Source: Motilibacter peucedani
GTDB lineage: Bacteria > Actinomycetota > Actinomycetes > Motilibacterales > Motilibacteraceae
Direction: 5' to 3'
Assembly: GCF_003634695.1 (NCBI RefSeq)
Contig: NZ_RBWV01000016.1
Location: 1 to 64,000 of the forward strand
Length of the DNA stretch: 64,000 bases
Shown one piece after another: positions 585 through 52,622 of this stretch (position 1 is the stretch's first letter; each line of letters opens with the position of its first letter). The notes under the pieces were generated by a model. It was not told the origin of the DNA, did no database searches, and saw only the letters and a program-made list of their open reading frames with translations. A program made the translations under genes and the position numbers.

Positions 585-1919
585 TCAGGGCTGCTCGCAC
601 GCCGGAGCATCGCCCGCGAGCGACGCGCCTCCGAGCCACGACGGCAGCGCCCGCGTCTCGGGGACCGGCGCCCATCCCGACTCGGAGCGGGCGTAGCCCC
701 ACGACGGCCCGTCCTCGAGCAACGTCCGCAGCGCGTCCAGCAGCCGCTCGACGTCGTCGCTCGACGTGCCGAGCCCGACGCTCACCCGCACCGCGGCCGC
801 GGTGCCGAGGCGCGCGAGCAGCGGGTGGGCGCAGAAGCGGCCGTCGCGTACTCCGATGCCGTGCTCCGCGGAGAGGTAGGCCGCCACCTCGCCCGGGTCG
901 CGGCCCGGCACGCTGAACGTCACGATGCCGACCACATCGGTCGCGTCGTGCCAGATGCGGTGCGTCCGGATGCCGAGGGAGGCCAGGCCCTCGGACAGCC
1001 GGGACGTGAGCGCGTGCTCGTGCGCCTCGAGCGCACCGTCGCGCAGCTCGCCCAGTGCCCGCGCGGCTGCTGCCAGCGCCGCGACGCCGAGGACGTTGGG
1101 TGTACCCCCTTCGTGGCGCGCGGGCGCCGTGGTCCACTCCGTCGCCTCGACGCGTACCTCTCGCACGGCGCCACCACCGGCGAGGTAGGGCTCGGCGGTG
1201 TCGAGCCAGTCGCGACGGCCGACCAGGGCACCGGCACCGTAGGGCGCGTAGAGCTTGTGGCCGGAGAAGGCGAGGTAGTCGACCCCGGTCGCGGCGAGGT
1301 CGACCCGGCGGTGCGGGACGAGCTGCGCGCCGTCGACGGCCAGCCGTGCACCGTGGGCGTGGGCCAGGTCGGCGAGCCGGCGCAGCGGCAGGCACTCGCC
1401 GGTCACGTTGGACGCGCCGGTCACGCTGAGCAGGGCGGTGGGCCGTCGTGCGAGCTCGGCCTGCAGCGCCCCGAGCGTCTCCTCGACGCTGGAGCCGCTG
1501 CGCACGATGCGGTCGCCGCGGCGCTGCCAGGGCAGGAGGTTCGCGTGGTGCTCGACGTCGAGCACGACCACCTCGCCCGGCACCGCGCTCGCCAGGAGGC
1601 CCAGGGCGTCGGTGGTGTTGCGGGTGAACACCACCACGTCGTCGGCACGGGCACCCACGAACGAGGCGACCTCGGCACGCGACTGCTCGTAGACCGCGGT
1701 GCACAGCCGCGACAGGTAGCCCGCGCCGCGGTGCACGCTGGACCAGTACGGCGTCAGCTGCGCAACGGCCGCGGCCACCTGCTCGAGCGCCGGTGCGCTG
1801 GCCGCGATGTCGAGGTTCGCGTAGCGGCGGGTCGAGCCGTCGACGAGCGGGACCTGCGTCGTCGCACCCACCAGGGCGGCGAGGGGAGCGACAGGGACGG
1901 ACAGAGCCTGGACGGACAT
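585..1919 (-). CDS. SufS-like cysteine desulfurase / class V aminotransferase-fold PLP enzyme
   Basis: The 444-residue protein has the whole class V aminotransferase fold. Visible are EHHANLLPW (residues 123-131), the DGAQ cofactor Asp near 196, the Schiff-base lysine in SGHKLYAPYG (Lys222), and RFCAHPLL, which aligns with the SufS-type active-site cysteine loop (Cys363). It should release sulfur from cysteine or a cysteine derivative as an enzyme persulfide. About 40 extra residues at the C-terminus, ending CEQP, are unusual. The start is an ATG with AGAGGGG upstream, only about 30 bases after a SAM-IV riboswitch on the same strand. This predicts repression when SAM is high and a role in sulfur mobilisation rather than housekeeping Fe-S assembly. 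There is no sufBCD context here. An EgtE-like C-S lyase is an alternative. Confidence 0.85.
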   Translation of the reverse strand: MSVQALSVPVAPLAALVGATTQVPLVDGSTRRYANLDIAASAPALEQVAAAVAQLTPYWSSVHRGAGYLSRLCTAVYEQSRAEVASFVGARADDVVVFTRNTTDALGLLASAVPGEVVVLDVEHHANLLPWQRRGDRIVRSGSSVEETLGALQAELARRPTALLSVTGASNVTGECLPLRRLADLAHAHGARLAVDGAQLVPHRRVDLAATGVDYLAFSGHKLYAPYGAGALVGRRDWLDTAEPYLAGGGAVREVRVEATEWTTAPARHEGGTPNVLGVAALAAAARALGELRDGALEAHEHALTSRLSEGLASLGIRTHRIWHDATDVVGIVTFSVPGRDPGEVAAYLSAEHGIGVRDGRFCAHPLLARLGTAAAVRVSVGLGTSSDDVERLLDALRTLLEDGPSWGYARSESGWAPVPETRALPSWLGGASLAGDAPACEQP

Positions 1920-2137: not shown

Positions 2138-2165
2138 TTGACATTGTCTACCGGATCAGTAGAGT
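2138..2165 (+). promoter_or_regulatory. Promoter of the sulfur operon
   Basis: A consensus TTGACA (2138-2143) and TAGAGT (2160-2165) are separated by 16 bases. Initiation would fall about ten bases before the plus-strand SAM-IV riboswitch starts, which is the expected geometry. Confidence 0.7.
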
Positions 2166-2174
2166 TAGCGCCAC

Positions 2175-2290
2175 GGTCATGAGTGCCAGCGACAAGCCCC
2201 GGCTCGCTGGCCGGCAACCCTCGCAGTGCGGTGGGGTGCCCCGGGTGACGACCAGGTCTGCGACCGCACGGTCCGCAGGCAAGCGCTCTG
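2175..2290 (+). promoter_or_regulatory. SAM-IV riboswitch (plus strand)
   Basis: The segment shows the SAM-IV signature in order: GGTCATGAGTGCCAGCG, CCCCGGCTCGCTGG, CCGGCAACCCTCG, GTGGGGTGCCCCGGGTGACGACC, a CTGCG...CGCAG side stem and the final GGCAAGCGC. It precedes a nine-gene operon of flavin monooxygenases and an amino-acid importer. Immediately downstream CTCC-TGAA-GGAG can fold over the ribosome site of a leader peptide, so SAM could act by controlling that peptide's translation. Confidence 0.9.
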
Positions 2291-2307
2291 CTCCTGAAGG
2301 AGGGTCC

Positions 2308-2424
2308 GTGCAGCACTCGACGAGGTGCCACGACGACCAGCACGTGCGCGGTTCTGCCGACCCGCTGCTGACCTCACGGCGCCACGTGGACCTCGTCCGC
2401 GTCGCCAGCTGCACCTGTCGCTGA
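2308..2424 (+). CDS. Cysteine-type leader peptide (regulatory uORF)
   Basis: A 38-codon frame starts at GTG 2308 with a strong AAGGAGG six to ten bases upstream and ends at TGA 2422. Its C-terminus reads LLTSRRHVDLVRVASCTCR. This matches the 'RRHVDL-RVAS-CR' pattern I know from small actinobacterial leader peptides placed ahead of sulfur-assimilation genes. Two Cys codons (TGC, TGT) lie in the last five codons. A GC-rich hairpin begins nine bases after the stop. Slow translation at the Cys codons when Cys-tRNA is short could change folding of the downstream RNA, as in classical attenuation. A shorter form starting at GTG 2344 is possible. The functional role is inferred; the frame and the motif are seen. 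Confidence 0.75.
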   Translation: MQHSTRCHDDQHVRGSADPLLTSRRHVDLVRVASCTCR

Positions 2425-2432
2425 CCTGACGT

Positions 2433-2450
2433 GCCGCCCAAGGGGGCGGC
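2433..2450 (+). terminator. Attenuator-like hairpin after the leader peptide
   Basis: GCCGCCC (2433-2439) pairs perfectly with GGGCGGC (2444-2450) around an AAGG loop, nine bases after the leader-peptide stop and about 110 bases before the first operon gene. No T-run follows, so termination, if it happens, would be of the GC-hairpin actinobacterial or Rho-assisted type. Confidence 0.5.
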
Positions 2451-2562
2451 CGACAGTGACGTCCGTCCACCGCGTACCTCTGTGCGTGCGCTCAGCCCTG
2501 CCCGCGCTCCGCCGTCCCGGCAGGACGGCCGAGCGCAGCCCTCCCACACCAGGAGACCCCTC

Positions 2563-3702
2563 GTGCCTGTGCCCCTCTCCGTCCTCGACCTGTCGCCGGT
2601 GCCCTCCGGCGGCACAGCGAGTGACGCGTTCAACAACACGCTGCGCCTCGCGAAGGCGGTGGAGTCGTTCGGCTACAAGCGCTACTGGCTGGCCGAGCAC
2701 CACCTCGTGCCAGGCGTCATCAGCTCCGCCCCCGCGGTGCTCGGGGCGCTGGTGGCAGGAGCGACGCGCACCCTGCGCGTCGGCTCCGGAGCCGTGCTGC
2801 TCGGCCACCAGACCGCGCTCTCGGTCGTCGAGCAGTTCGGCCTGCTGGACGTCGCCTTCCCCGGCCGCATCGACCTCGGCATCGGGCGCTCCGGAGCGCC
2901 GCGCCTGCCGGGAACGTCAGCAGCGCCGGCGCGGTCGCCGCAGCCGGCACACGAGGTCGACGGCCTGGTCATCCCGGAGCCGTTCGCCTTCACGCTCTCG
3001 GGCGAGCTCGGCGAGAGGATCCGCACGCAGCTGCAGCTGCTCACGCTGCCTGGGGCACAGAGCCCGGGTTTCGCCGCCCAGGTCGACGACGTGCTCGCCT
3101 TCGTCAACGGCAGCTTCACGACCGAGTCGGGTCACCGCGCGCACGCCGTGCCCGGCGAGGGCGCCGACCTGCAGGTGTGGGTCCTGGGCAGCAGCGGCGG
3201 TGAGAGCGCCCGCGTCGCAGGGGAGCGAGGGCTCCCCTTCGCCGCCAACTACCACGTGACGCCGTCGAACGTCCTCGACGCGGTCGCCGCCTACCGCGAG
3301 GCGTTCCGGCCGTCGCAGTGGCTCGACGAGCCCTACGTCGTGGTCTCCGCTGACGCGGTCGTCGCCGAGACCAGTGAGCGCGCCCGCGAGCTGGCTTCGC
3401 CCTACGGCCTGTGGGTCCGCAGCATCCGCGCCGGCGGGGGAGCGATCCCCTACCCGTCGCCGAAGGAGGCCGCCGAGCACGAGTGGTCCGACGAGGACCG
3501 CAAGCTCGTCGCCGACCGCGTCAGCACGCAGTTCGTCGGCACGCCCGCCGAGGTCGTCGAGCGCCTGCAGACGCTGCAGCGTGTCACGGGCGCCGACGAG
3601 CTCGTCGTCACCACTGTCACCCACGACCACGTCGACCGCGAGCGCTCCTACGAGCTGCTCGCCGCCGCGTGGGCGTCCGCAGACGAGGGACCGACCCGAT
3701 GA
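2563..3702 (+). CDS. LLM-class flavin-dependent oxidoreductase (MsnO8-like)
   Basis: The 379-residue protein has the bacterial-luciferase-like TIM barrel of the MsnO8 subgroup: LSVLDLSPV at the N-terminus, GYKRYWLAEHH near residue 40, a VGSGAVLLGHQTALSVVEQF stretch, and GRIDLGIGRSGAP for flavin binding. It is expected to use FMNH2 and oxygen to oxidise a small substrate. The start chosen is GTG 2563, preceded by AGGAGA, because the MsnO8 N-terminal strand begins here; the frame open upstream runs through the leader. It is the first gene after the SAM-IV/leader-peptide region and overlaps the next gene by ATGA. Substrate unknown; an organosulfur compound is inferred from regulation. Confidence 0.88.
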   Translation: MPVPLSVLDLSPVPSGGTASDAFNNTLRLAKAVESFGYKRYWLAEHHLVPGVISSAPAVLGALVAGATRTLRVGSGAVLLGHQTALSVVEQFGLLDVAFPGRIDLGIGRSGAPRLPGTSAAPARSPQPAHEVDGLVIPEPFAFTLSGELGERIRTQLQLLTLPGAQSPGFAAQVDDVLAFVNGSFTTESGHRAHAVPGEGADLQVWVLGSSGGESARVAGERGLPFAANYHVTPSNVLDAVAAYREAFRPSQWLDEPYVVVSADAVVAETSERARELASPYGLWVRSIRAGGGAIPYPSPKEAAEHEWSDEDRKLVADRVSTQFVGTPAEVVERLQTLQRVTGADELVVTTVTHDHVDRERSYELLAAAWASADEGPTR

Positions 3703-4907
3703 CCACGACAGACCACCTCCACCTCGCAGTGGCGCTGGACGGCGCCGGCTGGCACCCCGCCGCGTGGCGGGCCGCGGGCACCGCGCCCGCCGACCTCCTC
3801 TCCGCCGACCACTCCCTCGGCCTCGTTCGCCAGGCAGAGGCCGGGCTGCTCGACCTCGTGACGTTCGAGGACTCCTTCGCGGTGCAGTCCTCGTCGCGCG
3901 AGCGGCTCGACGAGCGCACCGACCAGGTACGCGGCCGGCTCGACGCCCTGCTCCTGGCCTCCCGCCTCGCCCCGCTCACGAAGCAGATCGGCCTCGTGCC
4001 GACCGTCACCACGACGCACACCGAGCCGTTCCACGTCTCGACCTCGGTCGCGACGCTGGACTGGGTCAGCAGGGGCAGGGCCGGCTGGCGGGTGCAGGTC
4101 TCGGCCCGCGACGTCGAGGCCGAGCAGTTCGGCCGTCGCGAGGCGCCGCACCTGGACCTCGCCGCGTACCAAGCCGGTCAGCAGCAGGAGGTCGTCGCCG
4201 AGCTGTTCGACGAGGCGGCCGATGTCGTCGAGGTCGTCCGCCGGCTCTGGGACAGCTGGGAGGACGACGCGATCATCCGCGACGCGAGCACCGGGCGCTT
4301 CGTCGACCGCGACAAGCTGCACTACGTCGAGTTCGAGGGCCGCTGGTTCTCCGTCAAGGGCCCGTCGATCGTGCCGCGCTCGCCGCAAGGCCAGCCGGTC
4401 GTCGTCGCGCTGGCGCACGCCCGCATCCCCTACGAGTTGGCCGCCCGATCGGCCGACGTCGTGCTCGTGACGCCGCACGACGACCGGTCAGCCGCCGCGA
4501 TCGAGGCGGAGGTGCGCGCAGCGGAAGCCGCCGTAACCCGCCGGGGGACGCCGCTGCAGGTGTGGGGCGAGGTGCTCGTGCTCCTCGACGACAACGCCGC
4601 CGTGGCACGCTCGCGCAAGGAGCGCCTCGACGAGCTCGACGGAGCGCCGTTGGAGTCCGACGCACTGGTGTTCACAGGTACGCCGGGGCAGCTCGCCGAC
4701 CAGCTGCTCGCCTGGCGAGAGCGGGGCTACACAGGCTTCCGGCTGCGTCCCGGCGTCGCCCAGGTCGACGTGCCCCACATCGTCCACGGCCTGGTGCCCG
4801 AGCTGCAGCGGCGCGGCGCCTTCCGCACCGCCTACGAGGCGGACACCCTGCGCGGCCTGCTCGACCTCGCCCCTGCCGCCAACCGCTACGCCGCCCCCGC
4901 GGCCTGA
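3699..4907 (+). CDS. Divergent LLM-class monooxygenase (NtaA/DszA type)
   Basis: 402 residues, related to the NtaA/SnaA/DszA flavin monooxygenases: TTTHTEPFHVSTSVATLDWVS, a WDSWEDDA region and IVPRSPQGQPV. It differs from its neighbour at 4922 in one important place. The QAGxSxxG loop that normally follows RSPQGxPV is replaced by VALAHARIPYELAARSADVV, so the FMN-phosphate site is altered. It could use reduced flavin weakly, act on a different substrate, or be a partner of the next protein. The start overlaps the previous stop (ATGA at 3699). Function unproven. Confidence 0.82.
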   Translation: MTTTDHLHLAVALDGAGWHPAAWRAAGTAPADLLSADHSLGLVRQAEAGLLDLVTFEDSFAVQSSSRERLDERTDQVRGRLDALLLASRLAPLTKQIGLVPTVTTTHTEPFHVSTSVATLDWVSRGRAGWRVQVSARDVEAEQFGRREAPHLDLAAYQAGQQQEVVAELFDEAADVVEVVRRLWDSWEDDAIIRDASTGRFVDRDKLHYVEFEGRWFSVKGPSIVPRSPQGQPVVVALAHARIPYELAARSADVVLVTPHDDRSAAAIEAEVRAAEAAVTRRGTPLQVWGEVLVLLDDNAAVARSRKERLDELDGAPLESDALVFTGTPGQLADQLLAWRERGYTGFRLRPGVAQVDVPHIVHGLVPELQRRGAFRTAYEADTLRGLLDLAPAANRYAAPAA

Positions 4908-4921
4908 CGCGAGAGCCACTC

Positions 4922-6313
4922 ATGACCACCACCGACCAGCGCAAGCGCCAGGTGATCCTGGCCGCCCACTTCCCGGGCGTGAACAACACCACCGTGTGGA
5001 GCGACCCCGACTCGGGCAGCCAGATCGACTTCGACTCCTTCGTCCACCTCGCCCGCACAGCCGAACGCGGCAAGCTCGACTTCTTCTTCCTCGCCGAGGG
5101 ACTGCGCCTGCGCGAGCAGCGCGGCAGGATCCACGACCTCGATGTCGTGGGTCGGCCGCACACGCTCTCGGTGCTCGCGGCGCTCGCCGCGGTCACCGAG
5201 CACCTCGGCCTCGCCGGCACCATCAACGCCACCTTCAACGAGCCCTACGAGCTCGCCCGCCAGCTGGCCTCGCTCGACCATCTGTCCGGCGGGCGGGCGG
5301 CCTGGAACGTCGTCACCTCGTCCGACGCCTTCACCGGCGAGAACTTCCGGCGCGGCGGCTACCTCGACCACGCCCTGCGCTACGAGCGTGCCGGCGAGTT
5401 CATCCAGACCGCCCGTGAGCTCTGGGACTCGTGGGCGCCGGGGACGGTGGTGGCCGACCGGGCCACCGGCACGTACGTCACCGACCCCCGCGCCGGCGAG
5501 TTCGAGCACCACGGACCGCAGTTCGACATCGCCGGCCGCTCCACCGTGCCGCGCAGCCCGCAGGGCCACCCGGTCATCCTGCAGGCCGGCGACTCCGTCG
5601 AGGGCCGCGAGCTGGCCGCCAGCACGGCCGACGCCATCTTCAGCCGGCACAGCGCGTTCGACCCCGCCCGGGCGTTCTACACCGACGTCAAGGACCGGCT
5701 CGCGACCTACGGCCGCGACCGCGACGAGCTCAAGATCCTCCCGGCCGTGACCTACGCCCTCGGCGAGACCGAGGAGGAGGCGCAGGCCAATGCCGCGGCC
5801 GTGCGCCGCCAGCAGGTCAGCCCGCAGACGGCCATCCTGCTGCTGGAGCAGCTGTGGAACCGCGACCTGTCCGCCTACGACGCCGACGGGCCCCTGCCCG
5901 AGGTCGACCCCGACGTGTCGGCGGACTCGATCATCCGGGGCAGGGCACCGATGTACAAGGAGCCGCTGAAGACGGCCAAGGAGTGGCGCGAGCTCGCGGA
6001 CGCCCACGGCTACAGCATCCGCGACCTCGTCATCCACGTCACCGGCCGCCAGTCGTTCATCGGCACGCCGGCGCAGGTCGCCGAGCAGATCGACACCTAC
6101 GTCCAGGCCGAGGCGGCCGACGGCTTCATCCTCGTCCCGCACATCACGCCCGCCGGTCTCGACCCCTTCGTCGACTCCGTCGTGCCGCTGCTGCAGGAGC
6201 GCGGCGTCTTCCGCACCGACTACGAGGGTGCCACCCTGCGCGAGAACCTGGGCCTGCCGCCGGCCCGGCCGGCCTCGAGCACGGCGCGGGCACGTCGGGC
6301 GGTGTCGGCGTGA
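4922..6313 (+). CDS. NtaA/SnaA/DszA-family FMNH2-dependent monooxygenase
   Basis: The 463-residue protein is a canonical member: FDSFVHLARTAERGKLDFFFLAEG, TFNEPYELARQLASLDHLSGGRAAWNVVTS (the family's signature block, here split by a few residues), a HHGPQFDIAGR stretch, and RSPQGHPVILQAGDSVEG with the intact flavin-phosphate loop. Relatives cleave C-S or C-N bonds or make lactones using FMNH2 and O2. Start ATG 4922 follows a 14-base gap after the previous gene and has GCGAGAG upstream. Reduced flavin is probably supplied by the flavin reductase encoded next, whose start overlaps this stop. Related Bacillus enzymes (YtnJ, YxeK) process S-alkylated cysteines, a useful model here. Confidence 0.9.
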   Translation: MTTTDQRKRQVILAAHFPGVNNTTVWSDPDSGSQIDFDSFVHLARTAERGKLDFFFLAEGLRLREQRGRIHDLDVVGRPHTLSVLAALAAVTEHLGLAGTINATFNEPYELARQLASLDHLSGGRAAWNVVTSSDAFTGENFRRGGYLDHALRYERAGEFIQTARELWDSWAPGTVVADRATGTYVTDPRAGEFEHHGPQFDIAGRSTVPRSPQGHPVILQAGDSVEGRELAASTADAIFSRHSAFDPARAFYTDVKDRLATYGRDRDELKILPAVTYALGETEEEAQANAAAVRRQQVSPQTAILLLEQLWNRDLSAYDADGPLPEVDPDVSADSIIRGRAPMYKEPLKTAKEWRELADAHGYSIRDLVIHVTGRQSFIGTPAQVAEQIDTYVQAEAADGFILVPHITPAGLDPFVDSVVPLLQERGVFRTDYEGATLRENLGLPPARPASSTARARRAVSA

Positions 6314-6831: not shown

Positions 6832-7784
6832 GCACGGAGCTCGCGACCGTCCCCGTCGACCCCACGACGCGCGCCGCGCACGAGGAGGTCGTGCCGCTCC
6901 GGCACCCGGGGCGCTGGATCGCGACCGCGGTGGTGCTCGTGGTGCTTGCTCAGCTCGTGCACGGACTGGTGACGAACCCCTTCTTCCAGTGGGACCGGTT
7001 CCGCTACTGGTTCTTCCGCCCGGTCATCCTCGACGGGCTGGTCATCACGCTCAAGGTGGCGGCAGCGAGCGCGGCGCTCGGCCTGCTGGCCGGGGTGGTG
7101 CTTGCCCTCGGCCGGCTCTCGCGCAACCCGGTGCTCAACGCCGTCAGCTGGGTCTACGTCTGGCTGTTCCGCTCGGTGCCGCTGATCGTCGTGCTGCTCT
7201 TCCTCTACAACTTCAGCGCGCTCTACCAGACGCTGAGCCTCGGAGTGCCGTTCGGACCGGAGTTCTTCCGCTTCGACGAGAGCAGGCTCGCCACCGACAC
7301 GGTGATCGCCATCATCGGGCTCAGCCTCAACGAGGCCGCCTACGCCGCCGAGGTCGTGCGCGCCGGCATCCTGTCGGTCGACCAGGGCCAGCAGGACGCG
7401 GCTGCAGCGCTCGGCCTGCCCCGGGGCTACCACTTCACCCGCATCGTGCTGCCGCAGGCGCTGCGCTCGATCATCCCGTCCTACGTCAACCAGCTGATCG
7501 GTCTGCTGAAGGCCACGTCGCTGGTGTTCTACGTCTCGCTGCTCGACCTGTTCGGCTCTGTGCAGAGCCTCGGCAGCACCTACTCCGGCGAGATCGTGCC
7601 GCTGCTGATGGTTGCGACGGTCTGGTACGTCGTGCTCACCAGCGTCGTGTCCGTCGTCCAGTTCTACGTCGAGCGCTACTACTCGCGCGGCGCGCTGCGC
7701 AACCTGCCTCCCACGCCGCTCCAGCGGCTGCGGGCGGCGCTCTCCCGGCAGGCCGCCGCTGCACCGACAGGAGCCACCCGATGA
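6828..7784 (+). CDS. Polar amino-acid ABC transporter permease
   Basis: A 318-residue membrane protein with a long N-terminal segment, about six predicted transmembrane helices and a HisM/GlnP-type core. The EAA loop is clear (EAAYAAEVVRAGILSVDQGQ, then a LGLPRGYHFTRIVLPQALR stretch), which contacts the ATPase. Its ATPase and binding protein follow. As a single permease gene it should act as a homodimer. The start GTG 6828 overlaps the flavin reductase stop. The family imports amino acids such as cystine, and context suggests an organosulfur amino acid. Confidence 0.92.
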   Translation: MSTELATVPVDPTTRAAHEEVVPLRHPGRWIATAVVLVVLAQLVHGLVTNPFFQWDRFRYWFFRPVILDGLVITLKVAAASAALGLLAGVVLALGRLSRNPVLNAVSWVYVWLFRSVPLIVVLLFLYNFSALYQTLSLGVPFGPEFFRFDESRLATDTVIAIIGLSLNEAAYAAEVVRAGILSVDQGQQDAAAALGLPRGYHFTRIVLPQALRSIIPSYVNQLIGLLKATSLVFYVSLLDLFGSVQSLGSTYSGEIVPLLMVATVWYVVLTSVVSVVQFYVERYYSRGALRNLPPTPLQRLRAALSRQAAAAPTGATR

Positions 7785-8620
7785 CCACCACTGCCGTCAC
7801 GTCGGCACCACTGCGTACTACTCCGGCAGTCTTCCCGCTGCCGACGCTGGCCGCCGAGCACCCTGCCGCCGTCGAGGTGGTCGGCGCGCACAAGTCGTAC
7901 GCCGGACGCGAGGTCCTGCGCGGCATCGACCTCGCCGTCCGGCCCGGTGAGGTGACCGTCGTCATCGGGCCCTCGGGCTCCGGCAAGTCGACCCTGCTGC
8001 GCGCGGTCAACCACCTCGAGAAGCTCGACCGCGGTCACGTCAGCATCAACGGCGAGCTGCTCGGCGTCCGTCGCCACCGCGGTCGGCTCAAGGAGCTGCC
8101 CGAGCGCGAGATCCTCGCCCAGCGCCGACGCATCGGCTTCGTCTTCCAGGGCTTCAACCTCTTCCCGCACCTGAGCGTGCTCGACAACGTGGCCGCGGCC
8201 CCTGTCGCCTCGGGCCAGCTGGGCCGGCCTGCGGCGCGCGAGCTCGCCCGCGAGCTGCTCGACCGGGTGGGCCTCGGCGACAAGGTCGACGCCTACCCCC
8301 GCCAGCTCTCAGGCGGCCAGCAGCAGCGGGTCGCCATCGCCCGGGCCCTCGCCCAGCAGCCGGGCGTCATCCTCTTCGACGAGCCGACCTCCGCCCTCGA
8401 CCCCGAGCTCGTCGGCGAGGTGCTCGCCGTCATCCAGGCGCTCGCCACCGGCGGCACCACCCTGGTCGTCGTCACCCACGAGATCGGCTTCGCCCGCGAG
8501 GTCGCCGACACCGTCGTCTTCCTCGACGACGGGCGGATCGTCGAGCAGGGCCCGCCCGCGCAGGTCCTCGACCGCCCGCAGCACCAGCGCACACGAGACT
8601 TCCTGCGCGCCGTCCTCTGA
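7781..8620 (+). CDS. Amino-acid ABC transporter ATP-binding protein
   Basis: 279 residues with Walker [11 protein letters not shown]-loop [18 protein letters not shown], signature LSGGQQQR, Walker [15 protein letters not shown] and a switch histidine in [10 protein letters not shown]. It is of the GlnQ/HisP type and energises the permease encoded immediately upstream (ATGA overlap at 7781). An insert of about 10 residues after the Walker A helix ([17 protein letters not shown]) is common in importers of cystine and related substrates. The N-terminal 30 residues precede the conserved domain and may be a linker. Confidence 0.95.
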
Positions 8621-8670
8621 CGCACGCCGCACCCCACCAACCCCCCACGAACCACTTCCGAGGAACTCCC

Positions 8671-9699
8671 ATGCCTTCTTCCGCTGCCAGACCCGCCCTC
8701 GCCGCCCTCACGGCCCTCGCCCTCACCGCCCTGGCCGCCTGCGGCAGCAGCGGCGACGACGCGGGGTCGAGCCCCCGCACCAGCAACGTCGCAGCCGCCG
8801 GAGGGGCCGCCTCGGTGCAGGTCGGCGCCGTCTCGAACGGAGCCGCCACGCCGGTGACGCTCACCGTGCCGGAGGTCGCGGCCATCCGCGCCGAGCTGCC
8901 CAAGGCGCTCGTCGACAAGGGCAAGATCGTCATCGGTCTCGGCCTGCTGCCCTCGGGCAGCCCGCCGCTCGGCTACACCGGCTCCGACCAGAAGACGCTC
9001 ACCGGCTCCGAGCCCGACCTGGGCCGACTGGTGGCCGCCGTCTTCGGCCTGACCCCGGTGCTGACCAACGCCACGTGGGAGAACCTGTTCGTCGGGCTCG
9101 ACAGCGGCAAGACCGACGTCGGCATCACCAACATCACCGACACCGAGCAGCGCAAGCTGAAGTACGACTTCGCGACCTACCGGCAGGACAACCTCGGGTT
9201 CGAGGTGCTGAAGTCCAACAGCTGGACCTTCGACGGCACCGCCGAGAGCCTCGCCGGGAAGACCGTCGTAGTGGGAGCCGGCACCAACCAGGAGAAGATC
9301 CTGCTGGAGTGGCAGGCGAAGCTCAAGGCCGCCGGCAAGAAGCTGACGGTGAAGTACTTCCCCGACCAGGGCACCACCTACCTCGCGTTGAGCTCCGGCA
9401 AGGCCGACGCCTACTTCGCGCCCAACCCGAGCATCGCCTACCACGTCACGCAGTCGCAGAGCTCGTCCCACCCGACGCGAAACGCGGGCACCTACTCCGG
9501 TGCAGGTGCGTCGCTGCAGGGCCTGATCGCTGCCACGTCGAAGAAGGGCAGCGGGCTGGCGAAGCCGCTGGCCGACGCCATCAACTACCTCATCGACAAC
9601 GGGCAGTACGCCGCCTGGCTCAAGGCGTGGAACCTGTCCAACGAGGCCGTCAAGACCTCGGAGGTCAACCCGCCCGGCCTTCCGATCACCAACTCCTGA
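8671..9699 (+). CDS. Amino-acid ABC transporter substrate-binding lipoprotein
   Basis: 342 residues. A signal peptide with lipobox LAAC places a lipid-modified Cys near residue 24, followed by a Ser/Gly-rich tether and a family 3 solute-binding domain ([54 protein letters not shown] as separate blocks). It should capture the operon's substrate outside the membrane. GAGGAA lies upstream of the ATG. The preceding 50 bases contain no obvious promoter, so it is probably co-transcribed. The ligand cannot be read from sequence. Confidence 0.93.
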
Positions 9700-52453: not shown

Positions 52454-52474
52454 GGTCGGCACAACTGAACATTG

Positions 52475-52605
52475 CTCATCCAGAGGGACTGAGGGAACGG
52501 CCCGTCGACGTCCCGGCAACCCTCCTCGAACGTCTTCGTCAGCACGAGGCCCGTCGAGGAGTAGGTGCCAACTCCGGCCTGCGGAAACTCCGCAGGGAAG
52601 ATGAG
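52475..52605 (+). promoter_or_regulatory. SAM-I (S-box) riboswitch
   Basis: The S-box elements are all present in order: CTCATCCAGAGGGACTGAGG, CGTCCCGGCAACCCTCC, GGTGCCAACTCC, GGAAACTCC, and the closing GGGAAGATGAG that pairs with CTCATC to form P1. The AGGAGAG ribosome site of the next gene begins directly at the 3' strand of P1, indicating translational control. SAM should lower expression of the threonine-synthase-like gene and the sulfur carrier behind it. Confidence 0.93.
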
Positions 52606-52622
52606 GAGAGGCCTCGATCGTC

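Follow-up and report, generated by a model that had tools for sequence, protein, structure and literature searches.

What does a SAM-IV riboswitch regulate when the first ribosome-binding site behind it belongs to a leader peptide of 38 codons? The question is raised by the leader at positions 2138-2562 of a 64,000-nucleotide stretch of Motilibacter peucedani DNA (contig NZ_RBWV01000016.1, positions 1 to 64,000; hereafter the window), where such an aptamer and a cysteine-type leader peptide stand in tandem before a putative organosulfur operon. Here we report that this tandem recurs in actinobacteria. We propose, with a probability of about 0.6, that it is a two-sensor leader working in series, in which the aptamer gates the upstream ORF (uORF) and the operon is on when SAM and cysteine are both low, a NOR-like logic. 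On this evidence a single mRNA probably integrates two sulfur signals for the cell.

A preliminary description of the leader had named a consensus promoter, a SAM-IV aptamer, a 38-codon uORF whose AAGGAGG can fold with an upstream CTCC, two Cys codons near the C-terminus of the uORF and a GC hairpin nine bases past its stop. All of these are present; only the last spacing changes, the hairpin beginning 8 bases past the stop. The features, in order, are:

2138-2165, plus strand: promoter-like site TTGACA-16-TAGAGT, a 10/12 match to consensus (0.0 expected in shuffles)
2175-2291, plus strand: SAM-IV riboswitch aptamer (RF00634, 103.6 bits against a gathering threshold of 38 bits, E 5.7e-18, model positions 1-116, full-length)
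2291-2302, plus strand: candidate Shine-Dalgarno-sequestering hairpin CTCC-TGAA-GGAG, a sequence motif
2297-2303, plus strand: Shine-Dalgarno AAGGAGG of the uORF, a sequence motif
2308-2424, plus strand: leader peptide uORF of 38 codons, GTG 2308 to TGA 2424 (ORF list; NF042934)
2410-2412 and 2416-2418, plus strand: uORF Cys codons, TGC and the family-invariant TGT, candidate sensor codons
2433-2450, plus strand: GC hairpin GCCGCCC-AAGG-GGGCGGC, 7 bp, without a U-tract
2504-2536, plus strand: second, stronger two-part hairpin GCGCTC/GCCGTCC...GGACGGC/GAGCGC, without a U-tract

Ten bases separate the promoter-like site from the aptamer, and the CTCC at 2291-2294 can pair with the GGAG inside the uORF Shine-Dalgarno. 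The uORF, whose peptide is MQHSTRCHDDQHVRGSADPLLTSRRHVDLVRVASCTCR with the C-terminus RRHVDLVRVASCTCR, has its own Shine-Dalgarno and begins about 140 nt downstream of the predicted 5' end of the transcript, and so is not leaderless in the Canestrari sense discussed below. Its stop lies 138 nt before the start of the operon. The genes on either side of the leader are:

588-1919, minus strand: SufS-like aminotransferase-V / cysteine desulfurase homologue (PF00266, 277 bits; TIGR01979, 282 bits, below its cut-off)
2073-1956, minus strand: second, divergent SAM-IV aptamer (RF00634, 95.4 bits), upstream of the SufS-like gene
2563-3702, plus strand: MsnO8-type luciferase-like monooxygenase (LLM1), the first structural gene (TIGR03558, 326 bits)
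3699-4907, plus strand: NtaA/DmoA-like flavin monooxygenase (LLM3; TIGR03860, 266.8 bits, under its cut-off of 279.7)
4922-6313, plus strand: NtaA/DmoA-family FMN monooxygenase (LLM4; family search, Humibacillus homologue)
6851-9699, plus strand: amino-acid-type ABC transporter (permease, ATPase and SBP; ORFs, SBP PF00497)

The setting of SAM-IV in the window is thus an LLM sulfur-type operon, an amino-acid ABC transporter, the SBP of which has as its best long match the cystine SBP NF008426 (below cut-off), and a SufS homologue. The minus-strand aptamer, absent from the preliminary description, lies back to back with the other (1956-2073 minus, 2175-2291 plus), about 100 bases away. A like pair, about 150 bases apart, occurs at a Nakamurella locus (L253; 3742-3854 minus and 4005-4118 plus), and the same window also holds a SAM-I (S-box) aptamer at 52473-52607 on the plus strand (85.1 bits).

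The uORF scores 40.2 bits against the actinobacterial NCBIfam model NF042934, "putative leader peptide" (cis_reg_atten; cut-off 27, E 1.7e-10), a match that exceeds chance, and it shares that family's RRHVDL...C type of ending. Against the Ms5788A and Ms4527A models it reaches 29.9 and 25.3 bits, both under the cut-off of 45; its Cys pattern is C-T-C only, with no run of Cys codons. When ten SAM-IV-linked leaders were scored against NF042934, eight passed the cut-off and two fell just under it. Most NF042934 leaders are without SAM-IV, which was found at none of 20 other leader loci tested, and most SAM-IV loci are without a leader of this type; since the two mostly occur apart, the parts are modular.

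How often, then, are they joined? SAM-IV is present in 261 of the 394 genomes of the class. A profile built from ten leaders, run in all frames over the sequence that follows SAM-IV at 117 loci, found the leader in the window and at one other locus (L093, of genome G177, which matches the Janibacter melonis record L249), where it ends RRHVDLLRVSSALCRR and precedes an SsuE-type FMN reductase; 40 further, mostly secondary, SAM-IV loci yielded it in four cases (L300, L301, L314, L315). We also scanned about 85,000 species, one genome each, with a pattern combining the SAM-IV core, its CAAGCG end and an H-[VI]-D-[LF] coding stretch. Among the matches with an aptamer core, 24 of 26 run into an in-frame RRHVDL/RLHIDL leader, and the peptide list of those without a core gives 0 of 56. 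All of the 18 re-scored loci among the 24 are SAM-IV (62-113 bits), and the motif that recurs in frame behind it is RRHVDLxRVSSALC.

The owners of the 24 loci are Intrasporangiaceae (8: Pedococcus, Phycicoccus, Terrabacter, Terracoccus, Humibacillus and Janibacter), Micromonospora (6), Streptomyces (4), Luteipulveratus (2 loci), Nakamurella (2) and two MAGs, one Marmoricola and one Micrococcales. The search of related genomes for SAM-IV followed by an RRHVDL-type frame, which had been put forward as a check, therefore finds the tandem in at least six families, with order and strand always alike. The idea of the two elements stacked on one leader is borne out as recurrent in actinobacteria by these 24 scan loci and the four secondary ones; the predicted pairing is no one-off.

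The recurrent tandems precede predicted sulfur genes. Downstream of them lie a cysteine dioxygenase (CDO_I) in Terrabacter and at Luteipulveratus L216; an SsuE-like FMN reductase in Pedococcus, Phycicoccus, Janibacter melonis and at Luteipulveratus L202 (called by sequence likeness only in Pedococcus, Phycicoccus and L202); a nitrite/sulfite-reductase-type protein in Marmoricola; polar-amino-acid ABC transporters in Micromonospora and Nakamurella; and a glutathione-transferase-like protein in Streptomyces. The amino-acid/cystine-type transporters are of the SBP_bac_3 kind, and sulfonate uptake is also among the functions represented. In Humibacillus the tandem leader stands directly before two LLMs, 61% identical to LLM3 and 69% to LLM4. 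LLM1, a protein present in 76 genomes, has homologues whose loci showed no SAM-IV (20 loci scanned with Rfam) and no leader (29 loci searched), so the leader does not travel with LLM1. The sister species carries the orthologous LLM operon behind SAM-IV, and no leader was found there; it follows that the leader is dispensable in that species and was gained or lost within the genus.

Conservation within the leader bears directly on what it might sense. Once duplicates are removed, 20 loci remain, and in these the H, D, L and R of the motif are invariant and S nearly so; the variation falls mostly at third positions, which indicates coding constraint. Failure of the uORF frame or its Cys codons to be conserved had been set beforehand as the refuting test; both are conserved, and the motif codon proved unexpectedly uniform. 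The motif Cys is kept at 18 of the 20 loci and is UGU at 18/18; four of four extra loci agree, giving 22/22 SAM-IV-linked leaders that bear the Cys. Related genomes, counted together with the window, supplied ten NF042934 leaders; the codon is likewise UGU in 10/10, whereas the remaining Cys codons of these leaders are UGC. These ten leaders are L119, L122, L123, L125, L130, L133, L136, L140, L142 and L145, most of them without SAM-IV nearby.

Background usage, counted after GC3 filtering in ORFs from the window and the loci, is very different: UGU makes up 1.8% of Cys codons in the window ORFs and 14% at the other loci, and about 86-98% of Cys codons are UGC. Were the loci independent, 18/18 UGU would arise by chance with a probability of about 3e-16, a figure that shared ancestry makes too strong, although several families are involved. 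An invariant UGU against a mostly UGC background points to selection at the codon level; a putative sensor of Cys-tRNA charging would be expected to favour just such a rare Cys codon, presumably read by wobble. The Ser AGC beside the motif Cys codon is strongly conserved too, so part of the signal could be RNA structure or a nascent-chain constraint. Three near-identical Streptomyces leaders (L201, L220, L254), standing before the GST-like gene, end RLHIDLQRVSSAY (RVSSAY) without Cys, and a fourth leader also lacks the motif Cys.

The position of the uORF suggests how SAM might reach it. At 119 SAM-IV loci a first ORF led by a Shine-Dalgarno could be recognised, and its median start lies 44 nt from the aptamer end for short ORFs and 48 nt for long genes; the leader ORF thus stands where the gene under riboswitch control would normally begin. 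In favour of the earlier suggestion that SAM controls uORF translation are this agreement and a modest folding result: the energy needed to open the ribosome-binding site of the uORF is 10.5 kcal/mol in the post-aptamer stretch alone versus 7.9 with the aptamer and downstream sequence free to fold together, the pseudoknot being ignored. A terminator search found no intrinsic terminator between aptamer and uORF.

The course of events that we infer, from SAM binding and ribosome stalling to the direction of each effect, would run as follows. The transcript would start just upstream of the aptamer, and the expression platform would hold the ribosome-binding site of the uORF instead of acting directly on the first gene of the operon. 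At high SAM the aptamer would be folded and the Shine-Dalgarno occluded, leaving the uORF untranslated and the operon off, whereas at low SAM the uORF would be translated. With Cys-tRNA ample, the ribosome would then clear UGC and UGU and terminate, and the operon would stay low; with Cys-tRNA scarce, it would stall at the rare, wobble-read UGU and the organosulfur operon would be expressed.

For the step from stalling to the operon, our first guess would be Rho-dependent polarity and our second a structural rearrangement around the hairpins. Spacers after the leader are richer in C than in G (mean skew 0.25, background 0.00), which would suit Rho; yet the first 120 nt of genes are equally C-rich (0.22). 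Two more specific routes were considered. Attenuation at an intrinsic terminator would need more than the GC hairpin offers: there are no terminator-like sites at 1900-2700, neither hairpin has a U-tract, and by eye no equivalent hairpin is seen at the other loci. The proposal that the uORF controls read-through at this hairpin accordingly finds no support in that form. To see whether a ribosome that stalls at UGU would free the ribosome-binding site of the operon, 20 loci were folded with and without its footprint; the mean opening cost did not fall (8.2 free, 9.1 stalled), so folding, which alone cannot exclude such release, does not support it.

Other readings of the tandem deserve consideration. 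The two elements might act as parallel layers, SAM-IV alone terminating transcription prematurely and the leader being a separate cysteine attenuator, with SAM not working through uORF translation. The modularity of the parts (the 20 leader loci without SAM-IV, the many aptamers without leaders) is in keeping with this, as is the Streptomyces clavuligerus SAM-IV leader, which yields a premature transcript unit (PMC8269248). The ribosome-binding site of the uORF, however, sits at the expression-platform position, the usual start site of the regulated gene, and the stretch before it is free of intrinsic terminators; we regard independent action as unlikely. A somewhat different objection is that RRHVDLxRVSSA may be a nascent-chain arrest peptide, acting in the exit tunnel and sensing something besides Cys-tRNA charging. 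The motif is indeed longer than codon counting needs, with its invariant and nearly invariant residues, and the Streptomyces variants retain RLHIDLQRVSSA while losing the Cys. Against this, the constancy of UGU beside UGC elsewhere in the same leaders speaks for a codon or tRNA effect, and the downstream genes are sulfur genes, which makes an arrest peptide improbable to our minds.

Cysteine sensing might also be absent altogether, with SAM-IV controlling the uORF and the operon opened through translational coupling, through re-initiation or through ribosomes that shield the RNA from Rho. Mycobacterium tuberculosis offers precedents in a B12 riboswitch with uORFs (PMC11260477) and in an M-box with a uORF and Rho-dependent termination (PMC12810186). 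Such a relay would leave the near-invariant Cys and its invariant UGU codon without a role, and the 138-nt gap between uORF and operon makes direct translational coupling unlikely; we consider it a distant prospect. That the tandem is a chance neighbourhood or a remnant with no joint function is hardly credible: its absence from the sister species and from the examined LLM1 homologues would fit, but not the independent appearance of the tandem in six or more families, in the same order and on the same strand before sulfur genes.

The series reading, with SAM-IV gating a cysteine-sensing uORF, may extend beyond leaders of the NF042934 type. Short ORFs after SAM-IV contain Cys in 23 of 42 cases, with Cys making up 6.9% of codons, and this suggests that the putative principle of SAM-IV with a Cys mini-ORF is broader. 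It is an evenly balanced proposition that SAM-IV in actinobacteria often regulates a tiny cysteine-codon sensor ORF, whether of the NF042934 type or a mini-ORF such as MRCCCQ or MCCCP, and that these form two-input gates in which the invariant, rare UGU would be the sensor of tRNA charging.

The mini-ORFs themselves are varied. About 20-60 nt behind many SAM-IV aptamers lies a Shine-Dalgarno with a Cys-rich frame (MCIRRMCCR, MRCCCQ, MRCCPLTRSH, MTCRMRR, MCCCP, MCCCCLSLAHR; loci L008, L013, L016, L025, L026, L039, L070, L072, L100, L103, L112, L293, L309 and L316), and several of these precede genes whose product starts ...WSFETRQIHA. Streptomyces-like genomes often have instead a conserved six-codon ORF without Cys, MSKRMR or MNQRMR (L023, L028, L030, L035, L036, L041, L042, L049, L050 and others).

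If the proposed mechanism is true, a single mRNA reads a metabolite (SAM) and an aminoacyl-tRNA pool (Cys-tRNA) in series, and actinobacteria would be seen to distinguish a satisfied methionine branch from exhausted cysteine when choosing organosulfur scavenging. It would also assign a role to some members of the large NF042934 leader family, explain the tiny ORFs behind some SAM-IV aptamers and provide a ready-made two-input RNA gate.

Compared with known systems, the window has a SAM-IV (RF00634), a full-length aptamer well over threshold before sulfur genes, but its platform holds a putative sensory uORF and not the start codon of the structural gene. The uORF is likewise a good NF042934 leader in score and ending, and differs in standing behind a riboswitch. 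Short polycysteine ORFs of mycobacteria, the Ms5788A/Ms4527A leaders of Canestrari et al. 2020, are reportedly leaderless and cysteine-responsive. With these and with the Cys leaders predicted in 2005 our locus shares terminal Cys codons, sulfur genes downstream and the lack of an obvious intrinsic terminator; from the mycobacterial ORFs it differs in having a Shine-Dalgarno, in Cys codons that do not form a run, in its sub-cut-off scores and in the presumed gating by SAM-IV. The 2005 work predicted Cys leader peptides without terminators and suggested Rho (Seliverstov et al. 2005, PMC1262725).

A riboswitch coupled with, or controlling, uORF translation ahead of an operon is known from M. tuberculosis, where the B12 riboswitch does the former (PMC11260477) and the M-box the latter, with Rho-dependent termination (PMC12810186); cysteine has 0 occurrences in the main texts of these papers, and neither system has a two-input logic of SAM and Cys. 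The SAM-II leader of Sinorhizobium metA works through an upstream Shine-Dalgarno distant from the true start (PMC9373788), and differs in its riboswitch class and in having no cysteine leader peptide. The preliminary description had thought the combination undescribed, and within the open-licence PMC literature we likewise found no account of SAM-IV with a cysteine leader peptide or uORF. Both parts belong to known families; what seems new, as far as the literature searched goes, is their recurrent combination into a putative two-sensor leader.
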